Below, one piece after another: positions 23,437 through 34,463 of a stretch of 54,586 nt of DNA. Numbering within the stretch: the stretch's first letter is position 1; each line of letters begins with the position of its first letter. The position numbers and the translations under genes were made by a program. The notes under the pieces were generated by a model. The model made no database searches. It was given only the letters and a program-made list of their open reading frames with translations, and was not told the origin of the DNA. The stretch is from a virus, in the IMG/VR virus record IMGVR_UViG_3300006028_000004, positions 1-54,586 of that record; one strand, 5' to 3'.

Positions 23437-23468
23437 TTCCGTTCTCCTTTGTGAACTTCTCTTTACTT

Positions 23469-23523
23469 GATATCCAGTGATATCTTCTGTCATAAGTATA
23501 TGATATCCAGTGATATCTGTCAA
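23469..23523 (-). promoter_or_regulatory. Consensus promoter with duplicated 16-bp operators
   Basis: Reading leftward: TTGACA (23523-23518), a spacer of exactly 17 bp, and TATACT (23500-23495). The motif GATATCCAGTGATATC occupies most of the spacer (23502-23517) and recurs just after the start point (23469-23484). The two copies are 33 bp apart, about three helical turns. Each copy has two GATATC half-sites. Confidence 0.85.
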
Positions 23524-23549: not shown

Positions 23550-23592
23550 ATTTGCGACGAGTTTGGGGAGTGCGGCAAAACTCGCGTGGTGT

Positions 23593-23657
23593 GGTATACT
23601 ATTCTCGCAACTCTCCCGTCTTTTTTAGCAAAAAGGGAGTTGCGAGAATAGTATACC
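23593..23657. repeat. 21-bp perfect inverted repeat upstream of the CRISPR-like array
   Basis: The left arm 23593-23613 (GGTATACTATTCTCGCAACTC) is the exact reverse complement of the right arm 23637-23657. The centre is T-rich then A-rich (TTTTTTAGCAAAAA), so the whole unit can form a long hairpin. Each arm carries TATACT, and the left arm has an extended -10 (TGGTATACT). The 12-bp piece TGTGGTATACTA recurs after the array at 23886-23897. Confidence 0.8.
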
Positions 23658-23702
23658 TATCAAGGTGGATTGCACCCGCTCTACAGGCTATTCCGTGATG
23701 CG

Positions 23703-23884
23703 GTTGCAAGGGTATCGACCCGTTTGAGGGTACTGAAAGCCATTTATGGAAGCGCTTATCTTTCCCCCCTGTATTGTTGCAAGGGTATCGACCCGTTTGA
23801 GGGTACTGAAAGGCCAGTTTCCGCGAGCAAGAGCAGATGCATCTCGTCAGTTGCAGGGACTTCGATCCGTCGAGGATACTAAAG
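23703..23884 (+). CRISPR. CRISPR-like mini-array, 3 repeats and 2 spacers
   Basis: Two identical 37-bp repeats (23703-23739 and 23776-23812; begin GTTGCAAGGG, end ACTGAAAG) and a degenerate 35-bp third copy (23850-23884). Spacers are 36 bp (23740-23775) and 37 bp (23813-23849) and unrelated to each other. The last repeat is the degenerate one, as at the trailer end of real arrays, so transcription is probably rightward. The internal stem ACCC/GGGT becomes ATCC/GGAT in the third repeat, a compensated pair change. The ACTGAAAG end resembles the 8-nt handle of type I and III crRNAs. No cas genes are present in the genome. Confidence 0.72.
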
Positions 23885-24025
23885 GTGTGGTATACTACTC
23901 GTGTCAAGGCGTTACAGGTAAGGTAAGCGGAAATCACACAACGACGACGCGATACACATCACCCCCCAAAGCCGGGTCACCACCGGTAGCTTCACTTTTA
24001 GCATAACAAGCAGGCGCGCTTGATG

Positions 24026-24062
24026 AAAAGAAAAGCCCTTCATAACGAAGGGCTTTTCTTTT
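24026..24062. terminator. Strong bidirectional rho-independent terminator
   Basis: A 16-bp perfect stem (24026-24041 with 24047-24062), loop ATAAC, core AAGCCCTTC/GAAGGGCTT, flanked by A-runs and T-runs on either side. It lies between the CRISPR-like array and the leftward gene at 24135, so it can end transcripts from both sides. Confidence 0.9.
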
Positions 24063-30309: not shown

Positions 30310-30554
30310 GGTTTCTCCTCGTGATACTGCTTGACAACTTTCTTCCCATCCCACACATACGAGAAAGGGAAGTATGCCGTATCGCCCTCCTTGCGCACAT
30401 AGAAGAGCGTCCAGATCTCGCTCGTGGTCTCTCTTCCTACCACTTCCCATTGTACTGTATGTTCGGTTGCCCACACAACCGCCTCGCCCTCGTCGGGCGG
30501 CAGGAAGGGCATGGCCGCGAGGGAACGGGCGAGGGAGGATGATTGCTCGATCAT
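30297..30554 (-). CDS. Hypothetical protein, 85 aa
   Basis: ATG overlaps the methyltransferase stop by 4 bases and its own end overlaps the loader by 13. Beta-rich centre (VVWATEHTVQWEVVGRETTS, YFPFSYVWDGKKVVKQYHEE). No family recognised. Confidence 0.6.
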   Translation of the reverse strand: MIEQSSSLARSLAAMPFLPPDEGEAVVWATEHTVQWEVVGRETTSEIWTLFYVRKEGDTAYFPFSYVWDGKKVVKQYHEEKPCMT

Positions 30555-31210
30555 ACGGCCACCTCGCTTTCCAGCAGAAGTTCGAGTTGTGGTATCTCTT
30601 CTGGCATGAGCAAGGGCTGCGTGATCTCTAAGCGTTTCCTGGCGATATCAGCCTGTCGCGGGTCAATCTCAAAGCCGATGAAGTTGCGGTTGATCTGTTT
30701 ACAGGCTACTGCCGTTGTCCCGCCACCTATAAATGGGTCAAGGATAGTATCATTAGGGCTTGAAAAACAATCAATATAATATTGAGCCGTATTGACATCT
30801 TGCCCCCAGGTGTGAAAACGTTTGTCCTTGCCGCTACTATTCCAGAGATCAAAGTATTGTCTACGCGGTCGATGTTTGCGGTGCTTAGAGAAAACAAGGA
30901 TGGATTTATAGCGAGCGTGGGCCCACGAACACCACATAATCCCATTGTCTCCCATGTGTTCAGAAACCAGATCCCAGTAATACGTGAGATGAGTTGCTAA
31001 GAGTTGCATAGCCTCAAATTTCCAGTAGGTGCCAACATAGGCAAGAAGAAACCCGTCAGGTTTGAGGACTCGTGCAGCTTCTTCTGAGAGCCACCCGTAG
31101 AGGTGGATGTGCTCCTTCACGTAGGGGGGATCGGTAAAGATCAGGTCAATACTCTCACTTGGAATATCTTTCGTGAGTTCCCTGGCATCGCCCGTAATGA
31201 TAGTGTTCAT
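30551..31210 (-). CDS. DNA methyltransferase (N4/N6, beta-class order)
   Basis: A 219-residue protein. The catalytic DPPY lies at 27-30 (LIFTDPPYVKEH) and the SAM-binding motif DPFIGGGTT at 158-166, an order typical of the N6_N4_Mtase family. It methylates exocyclic amino groups of adenine or cytosine. There is no partner restriction enzyme, so it probably protects phage DNA from host restriction or marks it. It lies in the replication cluster, overlapping both neighbours by 4 bases. Confidence 0.9.
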   Translation of the reverse strand: MNTIITGDARELTKDIPSESIDLIFTDPPYVKEHIHLYGWLSEEAARVLKPDGFLLAYVGTYWKFEAMQLLATHLTYYWDLVSEHMGDNGIMWCSWAHARYKSILVFSKHRKHRPRRQYFDLWNSSGKDKRFHTWGQDVNTAQYYIDCFSSPNDTILDPFIGGGTTAVACKQINRNFIGFEIDPRQADIARKRLEITQPLLMPEEIPQLELLLESEVAV

Positions 31211-32628
31211 AGTGCCACCCCTACCTGCGCTTGAGAGCGTTCAAAGGCGGCTTTGCGCTCGGCGTTGAGTTGCAGGATCTTCGCCGTGTAGGGGTCCATG
31301 ACCATCGTGGGCTTGCCCGGCTCTGGCATCTGTCCGGCAGGGGCATCACGTGCGGGCCAGCGCCCTAACTCTTTCAAGAATTCACGAGCATTTTGTGCTT
31401 CGTCAAGAATAACGCGCCCACCCGCCCGATGTCTCTCAGATGGTTTCTTATAGGGGAAACGTTCAGCCAGCACGAAGTTATCAATCATCTTGATCTGCAT
31501 ATCAGTGTAGGTATCAACGAGAAACGCAATGCATTCCGACTCATTGATACGACCGCCCTTCAGGGGAAGGAGTTCCCCGCCGCGTCTTTGATTAAAGTAC
31601 GCTTGCCACTTTCGCCGCCGCTCCTGTATCTCAGGTGAACATTCTTTAATACTGAGACGTTTTTTATTTTTCTCTTTCCCATCCGTCTTATAGGGTGAGG
31701 GTGCATTTTTACCACCCTCTGACGATAAAGGCGAAACAAGTAGCGTGGGTATCAATGCGACCTGTGTAGGCGTTATCCTCGTAGACTCAACTTGTAGCAT
31801 CACTGGCGTAGGTTCAGGTATCACTCGTGAAGACTCCTCTGGCCTGCTCTCGCTTTTCGTAAGTGGGGAAGGGTCCAGAGGAGTCTTTCTATTCTCTTCA
31901 AGATTTTCCCCAAAAGAAGAAAGACGAGAGAGAAAAGCATTACCCTCGTCACTTTCTCCGTCAGGAGAAATGACAAAGGAAGATTCCTTTCTATTCTGTA
32001 AAGTTCCTTTAATTCTATCGGCTTCAAAAACAGGTGTAACTCCTTGCTCTCGTGTACCTTCAGCCTCTTTGGTGGTTTCCAAATTTGAGAGTTGGGATTT
32101 CAATTTTGTGATCCTGGTTTCCAAATTTGAGAGGGTGGTTTCCAAATTTGAGAGTTGGGATTTCAATTTTGTCGCCTTTTCTTGACGTTCCTGTGCTTGC
32201 GCCTCTGCTGATGGTTCTTTTTTAGGAGCGGCTTTTCCACGGGGTTTCTTGGGAAAAGCTACCGGAGGATTGGCAATGGTCTCATTAATGATCTGGATAG
32301 AAACAGCATAGCGGTGTCTATATCCGTCAGCTTTGATATACCCCCAGGCGGCAAGCTGCTTTATGTAGGTGATGAGCGAGTTTTGACTGATCGTCACTTT
32401 TGCCAGAATATCTTTGTGCTCACACTCTACGGTGATAGCAGGAACTTCTGTCCAATCAATACCCTCGTTCTTTGCTACCCAACTTGCTCTATAGACGAGG
32501 AAGCCCAAGACTTTGCCTATCTCGACATGACCACGACAGACAAGGGTAAAGGACTTATGTTCAATATCGCCAATGTCACCAGGAGGAACGAGCCAGGGCG
32601 TGCGCGGTGGGCGTGCTGTTTGCGTCAT
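31207..32628 (-). CDS. Replication initiator-like protein with coiled-coil repeats
   Basis: About 473 residues; ATG at 32628, or GTG at 32631 overlapping the upstream stop. The N-terminal 110 residues carry a winged-helix pattern (DILAKVTISQNSLITYIKQLAAWGYIK) like phage O/DnaD-type initiators. Residues about 150-195 are heptad repeats (KLKSQLSNLETT). The C-terminal 130 residues (SIKECSPEIQERRRKWQAYFNQRR, then FVLAERFPYKKP) may contact other replication proteins. It sits upstream of the helicase loader, as in lambda O-P. Assignment by pattern and context. Confidence 0.65.
   Translation of the reverse strand: MTQTARPPRTPWLVPPGDIGDIEHKSFTLVCRGHVEIGKVLGFLVYRASWVAKNEGIDWTEVPAITVECEHKDILAKVTISQNSLITYIKQLAAWGYIKADGYRHRYAVSIQIINETIANPPVAFPKKPRGKAAPKKEPSAEAQAQERQEKATKLKSQLSNLETTLSNLETRITKLKSQLSNLETTKEAEGTREQGVTPVFEADRIKGTLQNRKESSFVISPDGESDEGNAFLSRLSSFGENLEENRKTPLDPSPLTKSESRPEESSRVIPEPTPVMLQVESTRITPTQVALIPTLLVSPLSSEGGKNAPSPYKTDGKEKNKKRLSIKECSPEIQERRRKWQAYFNQRRGGELLPLKGGRINESECIAFLVDTYTDMQIKMIDNFVLAERFPYKKPSERHRAGGRVILDEAQNAREFLKELGRWPARDAPAGQMPEPGKPTMVMDPYTAKILQLNAERKAAFERSQAQVGVAL
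32073..32172. repeat. Intragenic 21-bp-period repeats (iteron candidates)
   Basis: TGGTTTCCAAATTTGAGAG occurs at 32073-32091, 32115-32133 and 32136-32154. Copies 1 and 3 extend to identical 37-bp units (to 32109 and 32172). Spacings are 42 and 21 bp. They encode heptads of a coiled coil. Their A+T richness and place inside an initiator-like gene also fit an origin of replication. Confidence 0.75.
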
Positions 32629-33314
32629 CACATCACCTTCTCCCCTGCTTCATCTTCACTCATACCCTCTTCTGCCATCAGCCTTTTCCATTCTCTGACC
32701 GCCTCACGTATATCTTCGTCATCGTCATCAATTTGTGGGATTTCACAGAGCCTTAGCGCAACCTCTGCTAATTTTACCCAGTACTTATCAGCATTTATAC
32801 TCCACTTGCTACAGGCAGAGTGGTACAAATCAAGAAAAACCTCTCCATACCGTAGCCCAAAATGGGTGATACCGAGCGTATTGATAGCAAGAAGTTGTCT
32901 TTGTTCTTCCTTGGGCAGAGTTATAAATTCCCATTGAAAAGCGGAAAGATACTCCCCCTTTCTTTGCGGATTGCCCTGGATGTTCTGTAATGGGTGCCCT
33001 TTTTTAAGGAGGTCTTGTATCCAGTAGGCTTCATACTTGCGAGCGAGCCGTATACCGTGAATACGTGGTTCAAGTGGGATAGTGATAGGGGGCATATCCT
33101 TCTCGATCATTTCACGGATCCAGGCTTTTTGTGAGAAGTGCTGTTTGCGGCGTTGCTCTATATCAGTAGTAATGCCGACATAGATGGCCTGCAGGTCTAT
33201 GGAATGAACTATGCCATAGACCGAATACTCTTCCTCTTGGGATTGAGGACATGGTGTCTCTAGCCCGATTGCTGTCCTCAACGCAGCGCCAGGCGTGGGA
33301 AGGTAGGTACCCAC
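32628..33314 (-). CDS. GIY-YIG domain protein, 228 aa
   Basis: GTG start at 33314 (AAAGGG upstream). The N-terminal catalytic module YSVYGIVHSIDLQAIYVGITTD, followed by IEQRRKQHF and a Glu-containing EAYWIQDLLKKG, matches GIY-YIG nucleases. The C-terminal 100 residues (SAFQWEFITLPKEEQRQLLA, KLAEVALRLCEIPQIDDDDED) differ from ordinary homing enzymes. It may be a homing endonuclease or a domesticated repair or replication nuclease. It is in line with its neighbours rather than inserted in reverse. Confidence 0.82.
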   Translation of the reverse strand: MGTYLPTPGAALRTAIGLETPCPQSQEEEYSVYGIVHSIDLQAIYVGITTDIEQRRKQHFSQKAWIREMIEKDMPPITIPLEPRIHGIRLARKYEAYWIQDLLKKGHPLQNIQGNPQRKGEYLSAFQWEFITLPKEEQRQLLAINTLGITHFGLRYGEVFLDLYHSACSKWSINADKYWVKLAEVALRLCEIPQIDDDDEDIREAVREWKRLMAEEGMSEDEAGEKVM

Positions 33315-34387: not shown

Positions 34388-34463
34388 TGGGGCTGGCCGG
34401 ACTCGAACCGACGTTCCAGGGTTTGTAGCGCCTGGATGCTCCCGCGTGTTGAGCTTCAGCCCC
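34388..34463 (-). tRNA. tRNA-like gene with enlarged anticodon loop
   Basis: 76 nt. The acceptor stem is GGGGCTG/CAGCCCC with discriminator A and no encoded CCA. The D stem is GCTC/GAGC. The T arm is GTCGG-TTCGAGT-CCGGC with the canonical TTCGA loop. The anticodon arm is TCCAGG/CCTGGA closing a 10-nt loop, CGCTACAAAC, instead of 7 nt. If the only loop T is position 33, the anticodon reads ACA; CTA and TAC are other possible readings. Position 8 is A instead of T. It could be a divergent phage tRNA, a frameshift-type tRNA, or a decayed one. Confidence 0.62.

Follow-up and report, generated by a model that had tools for sequence, protein, structure and literature searches.

What use would a phage have for a CRISPR (clustered regularly interspaced short palindromic repeats) array when it encodes no Cas proteins of its own? 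This question is raised by positions 23703-23884 of IMGVR_UViG_3300006028_000004, a 54,586-base soil virus record that was analyzed over its whole length and is called the window below. A preliminary description of this DNA had proposed that a mini-array at this site borrows host Cas proteins to attack rival viruses, or else acts as a decoy that occupies those proteins. Comparison with other phages and with bacterial genomes best supports the first proposal, through the kinship of the repeat to host type III-B arrays, a syntenic array in a related phage (G014), and an antisense homologue of spacer 1. We therefore consider it likely that this cas-less phage array borrows the type III-B (Cmr) machinery of its host for use against related competing phages.

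The array is set in a viral genome, as judged from the virus record itself, its terminal repeats and its structural genes. The ends of the window are identical over 110 bp, which is consistent with a complete phage genome, and its recognizable genes encode a tape measure protein, an amidase, a terminase, a major head protein and a DnaC-like loader. The array takes up 182 nucleotides (nt), with three repeats and two spacers. Repeats 1 and 2 are identical 37-nt sequences whose starts, at 23703 and 23776, are separated by 73 nt, and repeat 3 is a degenerate copy recovered by a profile of the repeat family (nhmmer). This degenerate copy forms the leader-distal end, where working CRISPR arrays usually have such a repeat. 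The geometry claimed at the outset is thus borne out, and the locus has the form of a mini-array, with at least two repeats around one or two spacers of normal length (36 and 37 nt). The locus is a genuine phage CRISPR array with a leader. Its features and the related gene of the window are as follows (crRNA, CRISPR RNA).

23592-23600, plus strand: extended -10 promoter-like element TGGTATACT, at -108 from repeat 1
23593-23657, plus strand: inverted repeat of 21 nt, perfect, which lies in the leader and overlaps the promoter
23601-23702, plus strand: leader, whose terminal CG abuts repeat 1 as in most host leaders (leader comparison)
23703-23739, plus strand: repeat 1, ending 3' in ACTGAAAG, which resembles a type III 5' crRNA handle
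23740-23775, plus strand: spacer 1, 36 nt, antisense to methyltransferase coding sequence (sequence comparison)
23776-23812, plus strand: repeat 2, same as repeat 1
23813-23849, plus strand: spacer 2, 37 nt, target not found in spacer searches
23850-23884, plus strand: degenerate terminal repeat, stem compensated (ATCC/GGAT), profile match E 5.7e-6
30551-31210, minus strand: the window's own N6_N4 DNA methyltransferase (N6_N4_Mtase), homologous to the predicted target, with the homologous site at 30806-30841

No Cas protein appeared among the matches listed (the 25 commonest families) when the 71 predicted proteins were compared with PADLOC and Pfam, nor when ten large window proteins of no assigned function were each scanned singly. 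Host Cmr proteins likewise gave no match to the window phage by tblastn. The claim that cas genes are absent held in all of these scans.

The repeat family in host genomes and its type III-B loci

The exact window repeat had no match in IMG/VR, and a 30-nt near-exact pattern had none in genome contigs. Relatives were found with a shorter, degenerate core pattern of the repeat, or in one case (phage G417) with a wider one. A search of 400 Chloroflexota genomes revealed close repeats in three large genomes, and within their Chloroflexota class, 11 of 47 genomes contained the family, with up to 147 copies per genome and none for a reversed control. The closest host repeat among the genomes searched matches at 34 of 37 positions, with the compensated stem change described below. 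The family therefore does occur in bacterial arrays, which contradicts the prospect, raised in the preliminary description, that no matching repeat would be found. This class, which we take to be the Ktedonobacteria, includes one genome of 13.7 Mb, and the window's major head protein has a homologue with 46% identity in a further genome of this class. Anaerolineae were rejected as hosts; their arrays agree with the repeat over its 3' half but differ at 10 or more positions.

The repeats contain an internal stem, which reads ACCC/GGGT in window repeats 1 and 2 and ATCC/GGAT in repeat 3. Columns 17 and 28 always pair, as C-G or T-A, across 15 distinct repeats, and the compensatory change is therefore real, as had been claimed. 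The state of the stem separates the window and G014 repeats (ACCC/GGGT) from those of the matching host class (ATCC/GGAT).

The surroundings of the host arrays point to a particular CRISPR type. In host genome G282, arrays of the family bracket genes for Cas10/Cmr2, Cmr3, Cmr1, Cmr4 and Cmr6, together with a SAVED-PDDEXK effector, and homologous cmr genes adjoin such arrays in G357 and G039. This adjacency was established in the three genomes examined and not at every array. Within the class, Cmr2 was found in 10 of 11 genomes with the repeat and in 9 of 36 without it (p = 1.5e-4, not corrected for phylogeny). Because arrays of the family sit beside Cmr operons in the genomes examined, we read the window repeat family as type III-B-associated. 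Of the original assignment of the handle to type I or III, the type III part stands and is narrowed to III-B by the cmr-adjacent host arrays.

Arrays in other phages and the position of the promoter

A second array is carried by phage G014 (IMGVR_UViG_3300012199_000042, 30.5 kb), which has ten repeats, nine of them identical, and nine spacers. Its repeat differs from that of the window at five positions. The terminases of the two phages are 58% identical, and the gene directly before the array is 72% identical in both, which makes the arrays syntenic. Despite this synteny, no spacer is common to the two arrays, a result that runs against the identical spacers in related phages which the preliminary description had named as evidence against its proposal. 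A third array was found in the more distant phage G417 (IMGVR_UViG_3300012354_000004, 43.5 kb, with 82-bp terminal repeats), which has one truncated repeat followed by two full repeats. Near-copies of TTGACGTGCC[T]... lie on either side of the G417 array (L086 10090-10310), and the first repeat of this array is truncated immediately behind a TATACT element; transcription may start inside that repeat. The family was not found in six other long relatives.

Lone copies were also observed. The 100-kb phage G419 (IMGVR_UViG_3300033141_004211) has a single full-length repeat, GTTACAGAGCCCACGATCCGATAGAGGATACTGAAAG, on the minus strand (L125 137-173), and no second repeat of the family was found in that record. 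This copy could be a solitary repeat unit or act as a type III RNA anti-CRISPR. In the virus record G418 (L078 2703-2728, minus strand), a 25-nt repeat-like stretch ends a short open frame, as in G419. The G418 frame reads RSxRGY-stop, and the stretch may be a chance match or a remnant.

The leaders share the placement of a promoter-like element. This element, TATACT with an extended -10 TG, is positioned at -108 in the window and -107 in G014, compared with -111 or -112 in the leaders of five host arrays. The same TATACT-type element is also found upstream of other genes of these phages, so it is probably a normal host promoter. The inner leader sequence of the window array is not conserved with the host leaders, and the G014 leader holds a hairpin partly similar to the 21-nt inverted repeat of the window.

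A related element follows the array. In both the window (23888-24062) and G014 (L068 1879-2010), TGSTATACT recurs directly 3' of the last repeat and is followed by TCAAGGCG and then by approximately 100-150 nt leading to a terminator-like hairpin, as though the array were followed by a small RNA or by another leader. Its predicted RNA fold was no better than shuffled sequences (z = 0.06 and -0.42). The repeat end GAAAG and this apparent conserved transcription unit had raised a reading as a trans-activating crRNA or Cas12 system, which we dropped because the matching loci in the hosts belong to type III-B and the fold resembles the shuffles.

Spacer 1 and the weighing of explanations

The antisense frame of spacer 1 encodes NTGGKDKRFHKW, and the methyltransferase of the window carries NSSGKDKRFHTW at the homologous site. 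The two agree at 9 of 12 residues, with a score of 58, above the highest value (53) obtained from 600 random 36-mers. At the nucleotide level, 23 of 36 positions match the carrier's gene, and 10 of the 13 differences fall at third codon positions (p = 0.0016), an excess that marks homologous coding sequence. A 55%-identical methyltransferase in a host-class genome has its best spacer 1 match at the same motif. The motif, NxxGKDKxxHxW, fits best the phage's own enzyme and this one gene (contig G197:C159). Type III targeting requires a crRNA that is antisense to messenger RNA (mRNA), and a spacer 1 crRNA would have this orientation with respect to methyltransferase mRNA, an observation that concerns one spacer. 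Because the carrier's gene differs at 13 of 36 positions, its own copy should escape. This pattern fits RNA targeting of a related competitor with the carrier's copy spared. Among host spacers of the family, one in G282 (L077 439-473) reads YLTGKPGLGKT, a P-loop-like motif, in its antisense frame, suggesting that host spacers are also antisense to ATPase genes.

The array, the position of its promoter, its kinship to host III-B arrays, the lack of cas genes and the antisense homology of spacer 1 can be read in the sequence, and from these we infer how the system would work. The array would be transcribed from its own host-type promoter, and host Cas6 would process the transcript. Host Cmr would then load two crRNAs, each starting with ACUGAAAG followed by the spacer. 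An infected cell could thereby recognize and destroy transcripts of related competing phages, with the spacer 1 crRNA directed at methyltransferase mRNA.

Several results weigh against this explanation. The exact protospacer of spacer 1 was not found in IMG/VR (0 matches to a codon-degenerate pattern), and neither spacer 2 nor the 11 spacers of G014 and G417 had a target above noise. In nucleotide comparisons, all of the phage spacers gave nothing above shuffled controls in 0.7 Mb of related phage sequence, and blastn of the array against phages and plasmids returned weak chance matches only. The exact window repeat is in no host genome searched, the nearest differing at 3 of 37 positions, and Cmr2 gave no match in one of the genomes that carry the repeat (G296). 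The window array has no more than two spacers and its last repeat is degenerate, which would agree with a passive remnant, in which recombination captured part of a host array that the phage does not use. The truncated first repeat of G417 could be taken the same way. However, window repeats 1 and 2 are identical, as are nine of the ten in G014, the promoter position is kept, the stem is compensated, and the spacer sets differ between the syntenic arrays. We therefore regard a remnant as quite unlikely.

The decoy offered as an alternative in the preliminary description would have the repeats transcribed mainly to occupy host Cas proteins, in the manner of RNA anti-CRISPRs (Racrs), with the spacers incidental. 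Such use of repeat mimics is documented in phages (PMC10651486), and G419 has one solitary repeat of the same family. Yet Racrs are solitary repeats by definition, whereas the window has three repeats within 182 nt and two spacers of normal length. The host-like promoter position in the window leader, the nine spacers retained by G014 and the antisense phage-gene homologue of spacer 1 also argue against a decoy, which we judge unlikely. Alternatively, the array could direct host Cas proteins not at rival phages but at genes of the host, such as one for a methyltransferase. Some spacers of huge phages are aimed at bacterial genes (PMC7162821), and genomes of the host class contain many methyltransferases. 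The spacer 1 motif nevertheless fits the phage's own enzyme best, and other host methyltransferases align far more weakly; host-gene targeting appears very unlikely. The contig with the 55%-identical match may itself be phage-derived. Interference with competing phages through host type III-B remains the explanation that we favor.

Other elements of the window lie outside the array. At 23468-23518, a minus-strand consensus promoter (TTGACA-17-TATACT) is placed between two copies of TGATATCCAGTGATATCT, a pair that is likely an operator for leftward genes. A neighboring HNH-like gene found no relative when used as a scan query. An Rfam transfer RNA match (35.8 bits) lies at 34388-34463 on the minus strand, where ARAGORN calls none. 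An exact 39-nt direct repeat with 63-nt spacing (32071-32172) falls within a 474-residue gene (31207-32631, minus strand) that has no match in Pfam or PHROG.

Known virus-borne arrays and significance

Known virus-borne arrays come mainly from viruses of archaea and from huge phages, together with a modest number of other phages. The closest parallels are the mini-CRISPR arrays carried by SPV1 and SPV2 (Medvedeva et al. 2019, PMC6858448), which also have one or two spacers, no cas genes and a leader with a promoter. In those viruses, as here, relatives share the position of the array and not its spacers, and a spacer is directed against a related virus while the carrier's own copy is altered, a likeness that we infer for the window at the protein level. 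In contrast, the window is a tailed bacteriophage of a Chloroflexota class, its repeat is tied to III-B cmr operons and has diverged from host repeats by a compensated stem change, its relative G014 has nine spacers, and its exact protospacer was not found. Phage mini-arrays have been reviewed (PMC11656645) and modeled (PMC7099407). As recounted in these papers and in PMC6858448, the phage and prophage mini-arrays of Faure et al. 2019 are similarly short and cas-less with host-type repeats, and their spacers are mostly directed against related phages. According to the same accounts, their leader is absent or unlike that of the host and their repeats are the host's, whereas the window has a host-like promoter position and a diverged repeat. 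Huge-phage arrays (Al-Shayeb et al. 2020, PMC7162821) are short, with a median of six repeats; some lack interference genes and carry host-similar repeats, as the window array does, and, as proposed for the window, competing phages are targets of their spacers. The window differs in its size of 55 kb and in repeats matched to type III-B loci. Racrs (PMC10651486) share with it a phage-encoded repeat mimic behind a promoter, but consist of one repeat with no spacer.

Virus-borne mini-arrays are thus already known, and the distinguishing part here is the type III-B link together with a host-like promoter position in a bacteriophage lineage. We found no such type III-B phage array described in the open literature; subscription papers, including Faure et al. 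2019, were outside this scope. More tentatively, we suggest as a possibility with somewhat less than an even chance that a tailed-phage lineage of Ktedonobacteria-like Chloroflexota keeps a leader-driven, spacer-gaining array that programs host III-B against sibling phages. Its divergent, compensated repeat may reduce recombination with arrays of the host yet remain compatible with the Cas proteins found there.

The array ties a phage group of no assigned host to one Chloroflexota class. Since two related phages share the locus without sharing spacers, the gain of spacers through host machinery becomes testable. If the favored explanation is true, an RNA-targeting immunity that acts through second messengers would also serve as a weapon between phages of ordinary size.
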